Assembly (NCBI GenBank): GCA_029262355.1 | Contig: JAJCZO010000249.1 | Span: forward strand, 1-57,024 | Reading direction: 5' to 3' | Source: Deltaproteobacteria bacterium | GTDB taxonomy: Bacteria; Desulfobacterota; Binatia; UBA12015 | Length of the DNA stretch: 57,024 bases | Shown here: positions 43,066-50,381 of the stretch, piece after piece | How positions within the stretch are numbered: the first letter of the stretch is position 1 | How the letters are laid out: the number at the start of each line of letters is the position of its first letter | Program-made: the position numbers and the translations under genes | The notes under the pieces: model-generated | Databases searched by the model: none | Seen by the model: the letters and a program-made list of their open reading frames with translations, nothing else | What the model was told of the DNA's origin: nothing

Positions 43066-44379
43066 TCAGCTCGCGGCGGCAGACGCGGGAGCCGGACGAC
43101 GGGCGGTCGCCCGCAGATCGAGGCGAAGAGACGTCAGGCCGCGCAGCACCAGCGACCTCTTCCACGAGGTGGGGCTTCGCTCGCCGTCGAGGTCGGGGAA
43201 GCGGCGCAGGAGCCCCGTGATGCCAATCTGGCCTTCGAGCCGCGCGAGCTGTGCACCCAGGCAGAAGTGAACCCCGTGGCCGAAGGCGAGGTGCTGGTTG
43301 TCCTCGCGACCGACGTCCAGCCGGTCGGGATCGGGGAACTGGTCGGGGTCGCGGTTCGCCGATGCGAGGAGGACACCCACGATGTCTCCCTTCTTCACGC
43401 GGCGTCCGTGAAGCTCCAGATCGTCCAGCGCGACCCGGTCCGTCATCTGAATCGGGCTGTCGAAGCGCAGCATCTCCTCGACCGCGGTGCGGGCGAGAGC
43501 GGGGTCGTCCTGCAACCGACGCCGCTCGTCCGGGTGGCGCAACAGCGCCAGCACGCCGTTGCCAATCAGGTTCGTGGTCGTCTCGTTGCCGGCGACCAGG
43601 ATGAGCAGGCAGAGCGAGATGAGCTCGGCTTCACTCAGTACGTCGCCCTGCTCTTCCACCGCGACGAGGGCACTGACCAGATCCTCCCGAGGCGTGGCGC
43701 GGCGGTCGGCGAAGACCCCTTGGAGGTGATCGGCCAACCCGTCGAACGCCTCCTCGATCGGCCTGAGCCCACCCTCTCCCTGAAGGGGGTCGAGAATGCT
43801 CACGGCGGCGTTGGACCAGCTCTTCAGCTGTGCGCGATTTTCTACCGGCACGCCGAGCATCTCGGCGATCACGAGCAGTGGGAGAGGATCGCCCAGGTCG
43901 CGAATGAGATCGGGATCGGGCTTGTGTGCCATTTCATCCAGAAGCTCCTCCACGAGTTCCTGGACGCGCGCGTGAAGCTGCCCGATCACCCGCGGGGTGA
44001 ACGCGCGGCTGACGAGGCGGCGCAGCCGCGTGTGATCGGGCGCGTCAATCATCAACAGCGACTTGGTGACGGCCTCTCTCAGAGCCGGCGCGAGCGCCTC
44101 GAACATCCCCATGCGTTGAGCGATGCGCGACTTCGTGCGATCGGCACCGAAGCGTTCGTCCTGCAAAAGCGAGGCGACGTCACCGTACCGACTGAGCACC
44201 AGCGACTGAAGCACGGGGCTCTTGTATACGGGAGCGGTCTCTCGAAGGCGGCGGTAGACGGCGTATGGATCTCGCCGGAACTCGGGATGGAAGGGATTGT
44301 ACTTCCCGATGAGCGGCGACAGCAGACGCACCGGCCACTCGCGGCGAATCAGACCCTGGGCAATCTCGAGAGCGTTCAT
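43066..44379 (-). CDS. Cytochrome P450
   Basis: 437 aa monooxygenase. I-helix AGNETTTNLIG, ExxR in EEMLRFDSP, and the heme loop FGHGVHFCLGAQLAR with Cys373 as axial ligand are all intact. The N-terminus has no membrane anchor, so it is a soluble bacterial P450, which needs a ferredoxin and reductase not found here. The subgroup resembles CYP107/CYP125-type enzymes acting on fatty acids, terpenes or sterols, but the substrate cannot be fixed. It begins 24 bp after the second WS/DGAT gene, so both are likely one operon. Confidence 0.95.
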   Translation of the reverse strand: MNALEIAQGLIRREWPVRLLSPLIGKYNPFHPEFRRDPYAVYRRLRETAPVYKSPVLQSLVLSRYGDVASLLQDERFGADRTKSRIAQRMGMFEALAPALREAVTKSLLMIDAPDHTRLRRLVSRAFTPRVIGQLHARVQELVEELLDEMAHKPDPDLIRDLGDPLPLLVIAEMLGVPVENRAQLKSWSNAAVSILDPLQGEGGLRPIEEAFDGLADHLQGVFADRRATPREDLVSALVAVEEQGDVLSEAELISLCLLILVAGNETTTNLIGNGVLALLRHPDERRRLQDDPALARTAVEEMLRFDSPIQMTDRVALDDLELHGRRVKKGDIVGVLLASANRDPDQFPDPDRLDVGREDNQHLAFGHGVHFCLGAQLARLEGQIGITGLLRRFPDLDGERSPTSWKRSLVLRGLTSLRLDLRATARRPAPASAAAS

Positions 44380-44403
44380 CTCCGTCTCCCCGCCTCGCGC
44401 GCC

Positions 44404-45888
44404 TCAGCTCTTGATTACGACCTGAAGTGGGGCCGACGTGCCGTCGGCCAACTCAGACGACTCCGCGGAAAGCTGATAGCCACTCGCCGCGAGCCCCTTC
44501 AACTCATCGAACGCCTCTTCGGTGGCCCGCACGATCGCGGGCAGGTCGGGCAGAAGGTCATAGTCCGCGTTGAAGCCCCAACAGAGTTTCCCGTCGTAAC
44601 TCATCTGTGCCAAGCCGAGGCCCATGTTGTCGACGAGCGGCACGAGGGGATACGTGCGCAGGAGCCTGGCACCGAGCATGTACATCGGCAGTTGAGGGCC
44701 CGGGACGTTCGTGACGACCAGGTTGAACGGCAGCACACGCGAGATGTTACGGGCGCCCAATGCCAGTAACGTCGAAGAACCCCACTCCGCGGCGTCGGTC
44801 AGAACCGTCGCGCCCACCGCGCTGCGCTTCTCCTTGAGCTCACTGGTTCGCGCCGCAATCAGCCGAATCTGCTCGCGCGGGTCGACTTCCCCGATCGGCA
44901 GCTCGAGGATCCAGGCCGAAACTTGATTGCCGAGCGCTCCTTGTTGGTCTGCGGACCGCACACTCACGGGCGACATCACCTTGAAATCGACCGACGCCGG
45001 ATTCAACTGGCGTCGTTCGAGGAAGCGCTGCACGGCGCCCGTCACGACCGCCAGAACGACGTCGTTGATGCTGCAGCCGAACGCTCGGCGGATCGACTTG
45101 ATCTCTTCCAGGTCCATCGTCAGCCAGTCGAAGCGACGGTGCGGGCTCACAGGCTCGTTCAGGGGCGTGTCCGGCGCGAGCGACAGGGTCGAACCGACCA
45201 TTTCGTAGGCCGAGCGAAGGCGCGCGAAGGTCTCGCGTCGCGCATCTTCGGCCTCCGAGACCAGCGCCCGCACGCCGTTGACCAACTGCAGCGGCATGAA
45301 GACACGGCGCAGCATCTCGTCGCGCCACAACTCGAACGGCGACGGAGCGCGGCGGGGCAAGAACCGGGTCCTGCCCAGCTCGTGGGCGTCGGGCGTTGGG
45401 GAGAGCAGGATCTTCAACAGATCCACGCCCGACACCCCATCGATCATGCAATGATGCACCTTGGAGATCAGCCCAAACCGGTCTCCGTCGAGCCCTTCCA
45501 CGACCCACGTCTCCCAAAGCGGCCGCGAAGGGTCGAGGGGCTGCTCCATGATCCGCGCAGACAGACGCTTCAACTGCTCGTCGGTCCCCGGACGCGGCAA
45601 GCTGGTGTGGCGGACGTGGTACTCGATGTTGAACCGATCGTCGTCGACCCAGACGGGGCGCGACGTGAACGGAATCCAGCGAAGCTTCTGACGGTAACGC
45701 GGGATGCGATGCAACTCGCTCGCCATGTGCTGTTTGATCCGCTCGGCGTCGATCCCACCGTCTTCGGTACGCAAGCCCTCCCCTTCAAACGTGAGCGTCG
45801 AGGCCACGTGCAACGGAGTGTGTCGCTTCTCCAGAAGAAGGAACGAACTGTCGAGCGCCGTCAGCCGCTCATAGAAACTACGCGCCAT
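44404..45888 (-). CDS. Wax ester synthase/diacylglycerol acyltransferase
   Basis: 494 aa, a second WS/DGAT. Catalytic HHCMIDGVSG (about residue 140), PLWETWVVEGL and the C-terminal VTNVPGPQLPMYMLGARL and GLAQMSYDGKLCWGF are classical family features. It is more canonical than the one at 40719 and not closely similar to it. It is the first gene of an operon with the P450. Divergent from the cytochrome c gene, 83 bp away. Produces storage lipid at the inner membrane. Confidence 0.95.
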   Translation of the reverse strand: MARSFYERLTALDSSFLLLEKRHTPLHVASTLTFEGEGLRTEDGGIDAERIKQHMASELHRIPRYRQKLRWIPFTSRPVWVDDDRFNIEYHVRHTSLPRPGTDEQLKRLSARIMEQPLDPSRPLWETWVVEGLDGDRFGLISKVHHCMIDGVSGVDLLKILLSPTPDAHELGRTRFLPRRAPSPFELWRDEMLRRVFMPLQLVNGVRALVSEAEDARRETFARLRSAYEMVGSTLSLAPDTPLNEPVSPHRRFDWLTMDLEEIKSIRRAFGCSINDVVLAVVTGAVQRFLERRQLNPASVDFKVMSPVSVRSADQQGALGNQVSAWILELPIGEVDPREQIRLIAARTSELKEKRSAVGATVLTDAAEWGSSTLLALGARNISRVLPFNLVVTNVPGPQLPMYMLGARLLRTYPLVPLVDNMGLGLAQMSYDGKLCWGFNADYDLLPDLPAIVRATEEAFDELKGLAASGYQLSAESSELADGTSAPLQVVIKS

Positions 45889-46417: not shown

Positions 46418-47374
46418 ATGAAACGCTTCATCGATCACCAGGAACTCGCCCGCGACTCACGGTTCGTCCGGCAGGAAAACACCCTGTCCACCGTGATGTC
46501 CGAACTGCCCGACGACGTCGACAAGGTCGTCGAAGTCTTCGAGGCATTCGATCCGATGATCGAGAAGGCGACGCGCGGCACATCAGCCGAGGCGCTCTAC
46601 GACGAGTACGGGCCGTCGTTCGCCCTGGTCGCGGTGAACGACCCCCTCAAACCGACCGACAGCGCCGTGAAGACGCGACTCATGATGCGGATGCACGGAA
46701 TCTTCGTCGGCGAGTTGCAGGCGCTCGAGGGTGCCGGCCGCTCTCTGTGGGACTTCCCCGATGCCCCGTGGGAGTTCAAGATGAACATGGCCCGCCAATG
46801 TTGGGACGAAGCGCGCCACGTGCAGATCTTCGAGAAGCTTCTGGACCACGTCGGTGCAAAGCCGGGCATGTACCCGGAGAGCACGTTCCTGTTCGAGTGC
46901 GCGTGCTCCGACGATCCCGCGATGCGGGTCGCGGGCGTGAACCGAGGACTCGAAGGTCTCGCCTGCGACGTCTTCCGCGACATGATCCGGTACGCAGAAG
47001 AGACCGACGACGAGAAGATGAAACAGGCCATCGACTACGTGCTGGCCGATGAGCTCACCCACGTGCGCTTCGGCAGCGAGTGGGTTCGTGAATTCACGAA
47101 GGGCGATCCCGAGCACTACGAGCGAGCACAGGACTTCCGCCGCCAGGTCGACAAGCAGTTCAGCTTCGGCGGCTCGCGCTCCGACCGTGAGGACGCGGCG
47201 ATCCCAATCGCGACCGAAGTACGGAAGGAAGCCGGCTTCACCGAAGAGGAGCTCAGCGAGCTCTCGACGCTGTCGGCCGATGGGCCGTCGCGCGTTACGA
47301 TCAAGGCAGCCGCGAAAATTCTGCGGGAGCGCCACAAGGCGAGGGTCGCCGCGCGGGAAGGAGCACCGGCATGA
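46418..47374 (+). CDS. Ferritin-like di-iron protein (DUF455-like)
   Basis: 318 aa. Four-helix-bundle iron ligands are visible: GELQALEG (Glu99/Glu104), WDEARH (Glu131, His134), GLEGLACD (Glu179) and DELTHVRFGSEW (Glu212, His215), each pair two helical turns apart. This is the pattern of di-iron oxidases or oxygenases. The family is usually annotated DUF455; function is unknown. ATG with AGGAGAG ribosome site and a weak TTGACC/TACTCT promoter (46357-46384). It overlaps the downstream gene by 4 bp. Confidence 0.83.
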   Translation: MKRFIDHQELARDSRFVRQENTLSTVMSELPDDVDKVVEVFEAFDPMIEKATRGTSAEALYDEYGPSFALVAVNDPLKPTDSAVKTRLMMRMHGIFVGELQALEGAGRSLWDFPDAPWEFKMNMARQCWDEARHVQIFEKLLDHVGAKPGMYPESTFLFECACSDDPAMRVAGVNRGLEGLACDVFRDMIRYAEETDDEKMKQAIDYVLADELTHVRFGSEWVREFTKGDPEHYERAQDFRRQVDKQFSFGGSRSDREDAAIPIATEVRKEAGFTEEELSELSTLSADGPSRVTIKAAAKILRERHKARVAAREGAPA

Positions 47375-48051
47375 GCGAAGAACAGCGCATGTACCCGGGG
47401 ATCGGGCGCGATGAACGCACCACCTTCGCCCCCTACTCCGCCTTCGACATCCCCGAAGACCTCCGAGAGCTCCACGGGCAGTACGATGTCGCCGCGACCG
47501 CCAAACGCGTACGCAACTTCCGCTACACGCACGAGTGGATGACGATGATGATGGGCGGCTGGCTCGCCACGATCCCCGAGCTTCCGGTCAAGACAGGGCT
47601 TGGCAAGCTCATCTGGGAGAGCGCCCAGGCCGCGGACGAGCTTGGGAAGCGCCTGCCCGAGCTTCGCGCCGGCCGCAACCCAGCCACCGCTTCGCAAGCT
47701 TCCAACCAGGGCTACGCCGACCTGATTCAGAACATCGCCGGCCCCGAGTCGCCCGACCGCACGATCGAAAAGCTCACCGGCCTCTGCGACGTCCTCATGC
47801 CCCACCTGATCGAAGTGTACGAAGTGACGATGCGCGAAACCGATCAGATCTGCGACGCACCGACCATCGAACTCCTCGACGACGCCACCCGTAAGCTCCG
47901 GCGGCACGTCGCCTGGGGCAAGGACGTCCTCGACCGCCTCTGCGACACGGACGGCAGACGCGACCGCCGCGTCGCCCGCACGCGCGATGTCACAGCTGCC
48001 CTGCGCGCCTGCGGCGGCGTCACGGGCGACCTCCCGGCCGACGCTGGCTGA
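47371..48051 (+). CDS. Ferritin-like companion protein lacking iron ligands
   Basis: 226 aa. The helices align loosely with the neighbouring di-iron protein: WESAQAADELGKR stands where WDEARH is, and DDATRKLRRHVAW where DELTHV is, so the Glu/His ligands are replaced by Ser/Ala and Ala/Lys. This looks like a catalytically dead paralogue or partner subunit. Start set by the ATGA overlap with the upstream gene, implying joint translation. No known family name. The C-terminus is Arg/Asp-rich. Confidence 0.7.
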   Translation: MSEEQRMYPGIGRDERTTFAPYSAFDIPEDLRELHGQYDVAATAKRVRNFRYTHEWMTMMMGGWLATIPELPVKTGLGKLIWESAQAADELGKRLPELRAGRNPATASQASNQGYADLIQNIAGPESPDRTIEKLTGLCDVLMPHLIEVYEVTMRETDQICDAPTIELLDDATRKLRRHVAWGKDVLDRLCDTDGRRDRRVARTRDVTAALRACGGVTGDLPADAG

Positions 48052-48155
48052 CCTTGGCAAATACCCATCCTAGGGGCCGCCACCGAACGCCCCGACGGGA
48101 CCTGGCCTCGTCTGCCGGGGGAGCACATCGAGAGCAACGGCGGGAGCCGCGCTCG

Positions 48156-48680
48156 CTACCCGACCAATAGCCGCAGGACGTCGTCGATCACGGCGTCGGC
48201 CCGCGCCTCGACCTCGAGCCCGGAGATCGCGCCAAGCGGATGCTCGATCACGGCCAGCCGCGCATCGGGCAGTCCGTACGACTCACTCTGACTCCGCGCC
48301 AGAGGGACAAACGGCTCCGTGGCGAGAAGCACGGCAGGCACTCCGCGGCGTTCCATCTCTACTTGGTCGTGGACACTCCACGACGTGCAGGAGCCTCAAT
48401 CACCGCTCCCGGTCAGCACCACATCGGCTTCGGCCCCGAGCTTGTCGAGAAGATCTGTCTCGCAGCGCACGGCCGCGTTGCTCTTCTGGAGGGCCAGCGA
48501 GACCGACGCCCCGGTCCGCTGCGCGAGGCGTTGCGCAACGCGGGCAAGCAAGACCCCCGCGTTCGGCTTGCGATTGTCGAGTAGGCCGATGCGACGGCCG
48601 GCGAGAAGATCGGGCCTCGCAGAGAGTCGCATTGGCTGTACGCCGAGCGCACCTTCGGGACAAAAGATCCGGATCGACAT
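48156..48680 (-). CDS. UGSC-family selenoprotein (in-frame TGA = Sec95)
   Basis: 174 aa with selenocysteine encoded by TGA at 48396-48398. Standard gene calling splits it into two ORFs, but the frame continues past the TGA as U-GSCTSWSVHDQVEMERRG, and the first half ends DVVLTGSGD, the conserved sequence before U-G-S-C in the UGSC family, which includes selenocysteine and cysteine forms. Sec95 and Cys98 form a redox CxxC-like pair. An 8-bp perfect hairpin follows at SECIS distance. Start ATG (48680) with AGAGG; a TTG one codon upstream is an alternative. It is the last gene of an operon, 9 bp after the 351-aa protein gene. The enzyme activity of UGSC proteins is not established. Confidence 0.88.
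48366..48384 (-). ncRNA. Bacterial SECIS hairpin
   Basis: In the mRNA, 11 nt after the UGA, GUCGUGGA pairs perfectly with UCCACGAC around a 3-nt GUG loop. The loop starts about 19 nt after the UGA and begins with G, both within bacterial SECIS rules (loop 16-37 nt downstream, G in the first two loop positions). It lies inside the coding sequence, as expected for SelB-dependent insertion. Confidence 0.8.
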
Positions 48681-48689
48681 CAATTCCTC

Positions 48690-49745
48690 TCAGACGTCGA
48701 GCGGCAACGTGCGGCTTTTCGTCACGCCCCAACTCGGAATCACACAGGAATGTTTACCTGCTCCACCCGCGACGAGCACGCGATAATTGTCGGGGTGATC
48801 GGTCATCGGAATTCGCTGCTCCACGTCCCGAATCTCCTGCATCCACGGCCGCCACCGTCGTTGCTCAAAGGCACGGCGGAAGACGGCGACCGGAAGGCGC
48901 GCCCGCTCGAACAGGAAGCTCTGGACGTCCCGTCTCGACCACCCCGCACGAGCGATCGTCGCCGCGTGCTCGGGACAGAGCACGACGAAGCACTCCCCCT
49001 CGCTGATGCACGCATTGTTGCTCCCCAGCGACGTAAACGCCGACGCACCCTTCTCCAAGATGCGCGACGCGCTCTCGCTCTCCATGTCGTGGAAGTTGTG
49101 GGGACCCGCTCCGCAGTGAATCGTCACCGCACTCGGCGCGTCCACGCCGCACCATCGGTGATACGCCTCCCAAGGACTCTCCGGTGAGTTCTCCGCGATG
49201 CAGTAGGTATACTTCGCCGGCTGCCCTTGGGTGGACTGATCTCCCCGGCCCGGATAGGCGCCGCCCACGTGGAGGAGCGCGAGGCGAACCGCGCGCCCGA
49301 CCGTGGCATTCGCGCGCACGCCCGGCCCGAAGGTGCCCAGGCCGGCATTGAAGCCCAGCGTGGACACCGCCTCGCCGTGCACGATGACCAGCGGCGCCAC
49401 CGGGTGCGTCGTCGCCTGGACGCCCTGAAGATTGACCTCGTCTCCTGCAAGCGCGCGAATCGCGGTCGTGACGACGGGGAACACCGCCGGCGCACACCCC
49501 GCCAGAACGGCGTTCACGGCCAGAGCCTGGCAAGTTGCCCGGCCGAAGCGTGGAGGGAGAACCGCAACCTCCTCGTCCGGGTCTCGCCGGGCGAGCATCT
49601 CGCTCACACGAGCTTCGGTTGGAGCGACCAGGGGAAGACCGTCCCCCCACCCGCGTTCCTCAAAGAGCGCGAGCACCGCCTCCGGCGACTCGTCAGTGAG
49701 ATCGATCAGGTCGGGACCGCCGTCCGGGTCATCTCGCGTCGGCAT
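48690..49745 (-). CDS. Unrecognised cysteine-containing protein in selenoprotein operon
   Basis: 351 aa from ATG (MPTRDDPDGG). I do not recognise a named family, but the sequence looks conserved in style: GLPLVAPTEARVSEML, then APLVIVHGEAVSTLGFNAG, GTFGPGVRANATVGRAVRLA and SLGSNNACISEGECFVVLCP. Nine cysteines are scattered, several in polar loops (IHCGAGPHNFHD, HSCVIPSWG). No signal peptide or membrane segment. It precedes the UGSC selenoprotein gene by 9 bp and overlaps a 65-aa gene upstream by 17 bp, so the three proteins probably act together. Confidence 0.75.
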   Translation of the reverse strand: MPTRDDPDGGPDLIDLTDESPEAVLALFEERGWGDGLPLVAPTEARVSEMLARRDPDEEVAVLPPRFGRATCQALAVNAVLAGCAPAVFPVVTTAIRALAGDEVNLQGVQATTHPVAPLVIVHGEAVSTLGFNAGLGTFGPGVRANATVGRAVRLALLHVGGAYPGRGDQSTQGQPAKYTYCIAENSPESPWEAYHRWCGVDAPSAVTIHCGAGPHNFHDMESESASRILEKGASAFTSLGSNNACISEGECFVVLCPEHAATIARAGWSRRDVQSFLFERARLPVAVFRRAFEQRRWRPWMQEIRDVEQRIPMTDHPDNYRVLVAGGAGKHSCVIPSWGVTKSRTLPLDV

Positions 49746-49926
49746 CGAAGCTCGGCCCCGCTTCCTGCGCCAACAAGGGCGCCAGCGGGAGATCGTTCTC
49801 CAGAAAGACCCGGACGAAGGACAACTCCCCGCGCTCCACACGAGCGTGCACCTCGTCCTGCTCGAAAACGAGAGAAGGTCCTCCGTCGGAACGGGGATGG
49901 CCGGTGTGGGAGACCGCATGGCTCAT
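49729..49926 (-). CDS. Small acidic protein heading the selenoprotein operon
   Basis: 65 aa (MSHAVSHTGH...FDADAR). Predicted strands around VHARVERGELSFVRVF and helix LAPLLAQEA; no family recognised. The region is also covered by the 5' part of a longer frame of the next gene, but that frame is Ser/Arg-rich and nonsensical, whereas this one is a plausible protein. ATG with GAAGAAG upstream. It overlaps the 351-aa gene by 17 bp and is divergent from the Rieske gene. Confidence 0.55.
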   Translation of the reverse strand: MSHAVSHTGHPRSDGGPSLVFEQDEVHARVERGELSFVRVFLENDLPLAPLLAQEAGPSFDADAR

Positions 49927-50000
49927 GACTTCTTCAAGTAGACCGTCGGCCGCCGTGTGTGCAACGACCGGCTTGGCGCGCCGTCGGGACGTTCGATATC

Positions 50001-50381
50001 GTGGCCAGCGTGACGACGCGAGAGGACCAGAGCCCCGAGGGCACGCGCGTGTGCCGTGCGGACGAACTCGCCGATGGCAAGTCGTGCAAGTTCCGGGTGC
50101 CGGACGGCGACCGATACGTGGACTGCTTTGTGGTCCGTTACCAGGGCACCCTGCACGCCTACGTGAACGAGTGCCGCCACGTCTCGATGTCGCTCGATTG
50201 GGTCGAGAACCAGTTCTTCACTGAGGAGGCCGACTACCTCCTGTGCCCAACGCACGGAGCCTGGTACACGCCCGACACGGGAGAGTGTGTCGCGGGCCCG
50301 CCGTGCGGAAAGCTCCTCCACCGCGTTCCCCTCGTCGAACGGGACGGCACGATCTTCGCGCTCGCGCCGGAGTGGTCCTGA
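50001..50381 (+). CDS. Single-domain Rieske [2Fe-2S] protein
   Basis: 126 aa from a GTG at 50001; GTG at 49959 or 50010 is also possible. Cluster ligands are Cys and His in ECRHVSM and CPTHGAWY (C-x-H and C-x2-H), followed by GPPCGKLLHRVPLVERDGT. Such small Rieske proteins are electron carriers for dioxygenases or P450-like systems. No oxygenase subunit is adjacent; the gene is divergent from the selenoprotein operon. Partner unknown. Confidence 0.85.
   Translation: MASVTTREDQSPEGTRVCRADELADGKSCKFRVPDGDRYVDCFVVRYQGTLHAYVNECRHVSMSLDWVENQFFTEEADYLLCPTHGAWYTPDTGECVAGPPCGKLLHRVPLVERDGTIFALAPEWS

Follow-up and report, generated by a model that had tools for sequence, protein, structure and literature searches.

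Within the 57,024 nucleotides analysed here (the window; contig JAJCZO010000249.1 of assembly GCA_029262355.1, Deltaproteobacteria bacterium), there is a minus-strand frame that starts with the ATG at 48680, runs for 94 codons to a TGA at 48398-48396, and then stays open for another 79 codons to a TAG at 48158-48156. The question that this locus raises is whether a gene has been cut here by a stop codon or whether there is a single gene in which the TGA is read as selenocysteine (Sec). The original prediction, that of a selenoprotein, had placed the TGA correctly within this frame, and the residues before it, given as GTGSD, are actually LTGSGD. It had also expected ORF calling to split the gene in two; indeed, a program-made list of ORFs contains both pieces, with the first starting at an upstream TTG and 95 aa long. 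Joined, with the TGA as Sec95, the translation of 48156-48680 (including the TAG stop) is 174 aa.

The joined protein carries the UGSC motif and belongs, as had been proposed, to the UGSC family, scoring above both curated cut-offs (138.2 bits against NF041046, cut-off 125; 167.1 bits against PF24696, cut-off 25). The TGA at 48396-48398 is the U of the motif, and the codon at 48387-48389 encodes the other residue of the UxxC motif, Cys98, which is invariant in an alignment of 28 of 32 UGSC sequences and is present in at least 90% of an alignment of 55 (the window protein with 54 of 59 others). The family itself is already known, with its function unassigned, and the gene in the window adds another member.

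Directly upstream on the same strand is a second gene, here called the partner (48690-49745), of 351 aa from ATG 49745, which ends in a TGA (48692-48690) nine bases before the UGSC ATG. The 9 nt gap between the two (48681-48689) contains a GAGG that resembles a ribosome-binding site. The partner frame is open back to ATG 49919 (409 aa), with similarity to the rest of the family beginning near residue 70, which makes ATG 49745 the likelier start. A promoter and terminator scan of 48000-50100, which was uninformative, found none. Two further UGSC genes in this genome, on contigs C270 and C321, each have one in-frame TGA and each lie beside a partner, which makes three UGSC genes in the genome, all with a partner. 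The upstream partner, these two paralogous modules, and the kinship to GrdB and PrdB that is described below were all missed in the earlier reading.

Across the phylum, PF24696 is found in 38 of 395 genomes with at least 86 matches, where up to 8 candidates were scored per genome, and a TGA is present in 79 of the 86; of these, one also has a TAG and a TAA, and one overlaps a GrdB gene. When named genomes were scanned with a partner profile, at least 585 loci were confirmed, the best 80 of which were retained. The profile was derived from partners adjacent to UGSC, and linkage to UGSC may be less frequent among more distant partner genes. Of the 80, 78 were read, two MAGs under the name Bordetella parapertussis (L103 and L133) being omitted by choice. 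There is a UGSC domain in 74 of these 78 loci and a Sec column in 73; these 73 contribute 78 domains once two matches with E >1e-5 are dropped. L087 has part of a UGSC domain without the Sec column, and no UGSC domain is present in the stretches fetched for L079, L080, L094, and L116, where L080 at least is truncated by the end of its contig. L094 and L116 may have a partner without the Sec protein, or the UGSC gene may lie further away.

The partner loci listed are from Acidimicrobiales, from delta-, beta-, alpha-, and gammaproteobacteria, from Rokubacteria, Chloroflexi/SAR202, Nitrospinota, and Acidobacteria, and from the archaeon Natrialba asiatica. Of the cultured hosts, Actinomycetospora straminea JCM 17983 has the Sec form and Natrialba asiatica DSM 12278 the Cys form. 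The partner is fused after the UGSC domain in 17 of the 78 domains from the partner loci and in 9 of the 32 loci from the phylum survey and the window's own genome; in the others it is a separate neighbour. As judged from these sequences, UGSC is usually accompanied by one constant, unannotated partner, which is a new observation here.

At the codon aligned with the TGA, the 78 domains from the partner loci have TGA in 70, TGC in 6, TGT in 1, and GGC in 1, which bears out the expectation that the family occurs in selenocysteine and cysteine forms. Homologues with neither TGA nor Cys had been named as evidence that would count against a selenoprotein; 77 of the 78 have one or the other, with L095, which has GGC, as the exception. 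In this fused UGSC/partner protein (L095:1107-2843) there is a Gly at the Sec position and GNPTAK replaces GSCTSW, and it is possibly a non-redox branch. For further comparisons 109 sequences were assembled, 32 from the phylum survey and the window's own genome and 77 from the partner loci, after one domain truncated by a contig end and L036 (a copy of L009) were dropped; 107 are distinct. Among the distinct sequences that lack the TGA, 8 of 9 have Cys at the Sec position. On a tree of the 107 (three branches are long, and of the 103 inner ones 42 are weak), 6 changes between Sec and non-Sec are required, which would suggest that Sec and Cys have been exchanged several times within the family.

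An in-frame stop usually signals decay, and in a draft genome of 453 contigs a stop codon might also be generated by sequencing error. The fact that 98 distinct sequences have a TGA at the same codon makes either a pseudogene or an error extremely improbable here, as does the copy in the same genus (L152), in which the TGA is kept and the 30 bases that follow it are identical. Compared with L152, dN is 0.144 before the TGA and 0.071 after it, and dS is 1.227 and 0.743, so that dN/dS is about 0.1 on either side, a rough ratio given the high dS. Six more distant relatives have similar codon-position identity on both sides of the TGA, and the decay of the downstream half that had been named as a possible objection is therefore absent. 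While a downstream frame of 79 codons could conceivably arise by chance, the low dN relative to dS both before and after the TGA shows selection at the protein level on both halves. The two sides form one conserved protein, so the TGA must be read through.

The original prediction held that the genome should carry selA, selB, selC, and selD, and that a lack of selB and selC would speak against it. All four are present in this 7.77 Mb assembly (92.9% complete). There is a tRNA-Sec of 75.6 bits, for which ARAGORN gives the anticodon tca; a second match marginally above the cut-off (48.7 bits) is identified by ARAGORN as a tRNA-Leu. SelB (338 bits, with SelB winged-helix domains) adjoins SelA (541.5 bits) on contig C204, and SelD (286 bits) is on contig C260. 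Since matches below threshold are also seen in control genomes, presence is based on matches above the cut-offs, and by these the genome has the full bacterial Sec machinery. The SelD on C260 (L021:31-2331) follows, in one fused protein, a pyridine-nucleotide-disulphide oxidoreductase domain, a fusion of the Ndh-SelD type described in PMC2398784.

The ORF list, with both pieces in it, might also be taken at face value, with translation stopping at the TGA and restarting at ATG 48356 to give proteins of 94 aa and 66 aa. The sequence GSCTSWSVHD, directly after the TGA and upstream of that ATG, is strongly conserved; the Cys relatives have one open frame, and the machinery to insert Sec is there. 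Restart is for these reasons very improbable.

Downstream of the TGA there is a hairpin of the bacterial SECIS type (48366-48384, minus strand), GUCGUGGA-GUG-UCCACGAC, with a stem of 8 bp and a loop, at 48374-48376, that begins with G. The stem and loop are as had been predicted, while the distance, given as 11-30 nt after the TGA, is 12-30 nt when measured. The apical loop, at 20-22 nt, falls within the UGA-to-loop distance of 16-37 nt that PMC10778597 gives for bacterial SECIS. On RNA folding the hairpin by itself is unremarkable (z -1.97 against dinucleotide shuffles of a 40 nt piece), with 12.7% of synonymous recodings folding equally well, and Rfam has no match over 48100-48750 up to an E-value of 1. 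Such statistics on a single hairpin are too weak as proof of a SECIS, and comparative tests were used instead; these support it.

Because the stem joins three codon third positions to three other third positions, the structure can be tested apart from the protein. Counted from the TGA, positions 12-30 form a Watson-Crick pair in 61 of the 98 distinct TGA-type sequences (48.5 expected), positions 15-27 in 89 (74.9), and positions 18-24 in 93 (64.2), the expected values being those of shuffles that preserve the amino acid of the shuffled codon; the observed counts were reached in 0 of 5000 shuffles at each pair. The effect of relatedness stays in these shuffles, and it is also retained when one arm of the stem is slid against the other. 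The full 7 bp stem is in register in 68 of the 98, as opposed to 0 or 1 after sliding one arm by 1-4 bases. Where sequences have Trp or Cys at one codon and Val, Ile, Leu, or Met at the other, TGG goes with a C-ending codon in 59 of 61 cases and TGC with a G-ending codon in 22 of 22, a clear illustration of how a SECIS can covary by way of synonymous codons. A formal covariation count, which is illustrative given that its 22 sequences were picked by hand from the 98 used for the full test, gave 0.171 against 0.050 (0 of 500 shuffles); of its five measures one, that for further pair types, is unexceptional, with 41 of 500 shuffles reaching the observed value.

The loop is similarly constrained. 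Its G and U come from a Ser codon, AGT (48375-48377). Among sequences with Ser at this position, AGT is used by 78 of 78 of the TGA type and AGC by 3 of 3 non-TGA relatives, and where there is a Cys instead, the codon is TGT in 9 of 9 TGA-type sequences and TGC in 5 of 5 non-TGA relatives. Elsewhere in TGA-type genes the ratio of AGT to AGC is 25:150, a background drawn from the partner loci and excluding the phylum loci. In L155 and L156, Cys relatives from the GTDB family of the window's genome, the loop base and the 18-24 pair have been lost. L156 is identical to L106 over 3334 of 3334 bases. The in-register stems, compared with those after sliding, and the covariation at three third-position pairs show that the hairpin is more than chance, and is a SECIS hairpin under selection. 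The stem is weak in register (fewer than 6 of 7 pairs) in 12 of the 98, some of which have a hairpin in another register a few bases downstream. A predicted hairpin shifted downstream by a few bases is also seen in L050, L054, and L055, a subgroup of fused UGSC proteins, and is perhaps a shifted SECIS.

These features of the TGA forms also bear on the possibility that the TGA is read as some other residue, through a variant code or a suppressor. While any read-through would yield one protein, nothing specific favours this version. The SECIS features that accompany the TGA forms, the Cys in 8 of the 9 non-TGA relatives, and the use of TGA as the stop of the partner gene itself (48692-48690) speak against it, and it is hardly credible. 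The gene seemingly cut by a stop is very probably one gene in which the TGA is read as selenocysteine, and it illustrates how plain ORF calling splits selenoprotein genes in two.

With the TGA accepted as Sec, the relationship of the UGSC domain to other proteins can be considered. In a profile comparison by hhalign, the alignment of 55 UGSC proteins matches that of 10 GrdB proteins with a probability of 95.8% (E 7.5e-9) over 89 columns, from just before the Sec to beyond the HPLG of GrdB, with which His147-Pro148 (48237-48242) are aligned. These two residues are invariant among the 55, and among the 28 Pro is invariant and His is present in at least 90%. The fused UGSC/partner family matches GrdB at 95.0%, while two control comparisons with the partner gave 0.2% each. 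The GrdB proteins were fetched through PF07355, and 10 of 12 GrdB loci were used, one near-copy and one unusable read-through being left out. From the Sec to beyond the HPLG, the UGSC domain thus appears, on the profile comparison, to be homologous to the Sec-containing C-terminal domain of GrdB.

Family searches point in the same direction. At E <=0.1, and next after the UGSC family itself, the 28 UGSC proteins match TIGR01917 (14 proteins), sarcosine GrdF (11), TIGR01918 (6), PrdB (4), and betaine GrdH (3) in NCBIfam, the best match of the GrdB type having an E-value of 6e-5; six unrelated families each match one UGSC member, with E-values down to 0.0017. In a Pfam scan of the same proteins PF07355 (GRDB) is not listed, while 3 of the 28 match PF01497, a periplasmic binding protein family (best 5.3e-5), and 1 matches PF09338, at 0.01. 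In the GrdB loci that were read, the PF07355 matches end at the TGA, which would suggest that this model may lack the Sec domain. In genome G358, the end of a GRDB match is overlapped by an in-frame PF24696 match of 24.8 bits that spans a TGA.

UGSC is nonetheless distinct from GrdB (TIGR01917, NF040794, PF07355). Both have the Sec domain, a U-G-[ST]-C-T motif, and a gene for another subunit just upstream, while the long N-terminal part of GrdB is absent from UGSC and the UGSC partner is not detectably GrdE. The window protein is far below the GrdB cut-off (15.0 bits against 602.2 for TIGR01917). For PrdB (TIGR04483) there is, by profile score, a weak match over the Sec region among the UGSC members (15.2 bits, E 0.011), below the cut-off of 300. 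The UxxCxxC of GrdB is not present in the window protein, which has UGSCTSW with a Trp at the second Cys, although 23 of the 98 TGA-type sequences do have Cys there. PF09338, of the GrdE/PrdA type, lies directly before GrdB in 6 of 6 GrdB genomes searched; it has no match in the window's genome. There is likewise no GrdA match in the window's genome, in a search to which no positive control responded. No mention of kinship was found in the available text of general papers and reviews that deal with UGSC together with GrdB, PrdB, or glycine reductase, and the kinship is a new point here.

The kinship has to be weighed against an earlier suggestion about the fold. In 2008 a thioredoxin-like fold was suggested in PMC2398784 for the protein that appears as 'UGSC-containing protein' in the Global Ocean Sampling selenoproteome; PMC13188914 is ambiguous on this point. 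The AlphaFold model of the UGSC protein (pLDDT 95.9, pTM 0.89) has alternating strands and helices, with Sec95 just after strand 3, and from this alternation alone we call the predicted domain Rossmann-like. Foldseek finds general alpha/beta folds with TM-scores up to 0.54; the 50 PDB matches listed, of 1766, name no thioredoxin. Model and profile comparison do not support a thioredoxin-like fold for UGSC and make it less likely, the absent match being in itself weak evidence. PDB sequence searches with the UGSC, fused, and GrdB profiles gave nothing convincing, and found no GrdB structure.

The fold matters for function, since the protein could be a genuine selenoprotein and yet be a thioredoxin-like thiol/disulfide or peroxide reductase, with the partner as its protein substrate or chaperone. 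The UxxC is a redox motif, this type of protein is what the literature suggests, and 3 of 18 partners scanned match the NCBIfam thioredoxin model. Given the predicted strand and helix alternation, the Foldseek result, the profile kinship to GrdB and PrdB, the varied and often catabolic neighbours, and the many copies in some genomes, such a reductase is unlikely, and the reading in which UGSC is related to GrdB is the one followed below.

The partner has no family in Pfam or NCBIfam at E <=0.01, and at E <=0.1 its sole match is a sub-threshold one to DUF2619 (E 0.064). In the alignment, the partners of L010, L045, L048, and L037 begin with a thioredoxin-like domain containing CPTC or CATC, which is a candidate built-in electron donor for UGSC; the window's own partner has no thioredoxin domain in the Pfam and NCBIfam scans. 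For L075, a natural fused protein (pLDDT 89.8, pTM 0.91), the model has no PDB match at E <=0.001, a limit that the general matches of the UGSC part also fail to reach, and this only hints that the predicted partner fold is one not yet solved. The partner was also tried as a relative of GrdE (hhalign 0.4%) and of GrdB (0.2%), and both were rejected; the fused profile matches GrdE at 2.6% (E 0.018) through its UGSC part, which is too weak to use. A fusion of UGSC with a domain called 'Unknown_1' is reported in PMC2398784, and this domain may be the partner family.

As a whole, the locus is best explained, and with good confidence, as a minus-strand module of a partner followed by a UGSC selenoprotein that has a SECIS and a Sec domain homologous to that of GrdB. 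More tentatively, UGSC might be a selenol enzyme similar to GrdB and PrdB with a different substrate subunit. SelB bound to the hairpin would deliver Sec-tRNA-Sec to the UGA, a step for which the case is strong. The selenolate of Sec95, where a helix of the Rossmann-like domain is predicted to begin, would then attack a substrate bound by, or together with, the partner, which would take the part played by GrdE or PrdA as substrate subunit. The substrate would be cleaved reductively, possibly at a C-N, C-O, C-S, or carbon-halogen bond, Cys98 of the UxxC would resolve the oxidised selenium, and a donor of the thioredoxin type would re-reduce it. The attack by Sec95, the role of Cys98, and the thioredoxin-like donor are proposed by analogy with GrdB-type enzymes. 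In these, according to PMC10838667, a Schiff base makes the C-N bond polarised and open to nucleophilic attack near the Sec, and cysteines protect the Sec; an enzyme similar to GrdB is there assigned to C-F cleavage of monofluoroacetate. For GrdB itself, PMC13188914 states that glycine is bound and ammonia released, and that GrdA and thioredoxin share in the reduction.

The genes around the module are mixed and often catabolic, and fit organic-acid catabolism. Among 127 neighbouring ORFs scanned, picked by hand from 274 of at least 150 aa in a crude ORF list that may include false ORFs, there are 8 TctC receptors, 5 class III CoA-transferases, and 4 acyl-CoA dehydrogenases. In the 5 actinobacterial relatives scanned for it a short-chain dehydrogenase lies directly after UGSC, with other genes in this position in L058 and L059. 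As a pointer to a single substrate the neighbours are too mixed. Large expansions of the UGSC/partner module within a single genome are seen in G198, G033, G208, and G252, and partner matches number 12 in G198 and 7 in G408. Such expansions suggest substrate diversification.

UGSC and its partner may form a separate and widespread class of Sec-dependent, reductive bond-cleaving enzymes in soil and marine microbes. If this is true, the Sec domain of GrdB and PrdB has been combined with a new substrate subunit, perhaps of unsolved fold, and multiplied within genomes for different substrates. Given the kinship to GrdB and PrdB, the constant partner, and the often catabolic neighbours, what was 'some redox protein' becomes an enzyme hypothesis that can be tested.

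Near the module in the window (43066-45888, minus strand; 49959-50381, plus strand) are genes for a cytochrome P450, a wax ester synthase/DGAT, and a Rieske-domain protein, which nothing ties to it. Convergent to UGSC is an ORF of 226 aa (47371-48051, plus strand) without a Pfam or NCBIfam match, and the gene before it on the same strand, for a DUF455 protein (46418-47374), overlaps it by 4 bases.
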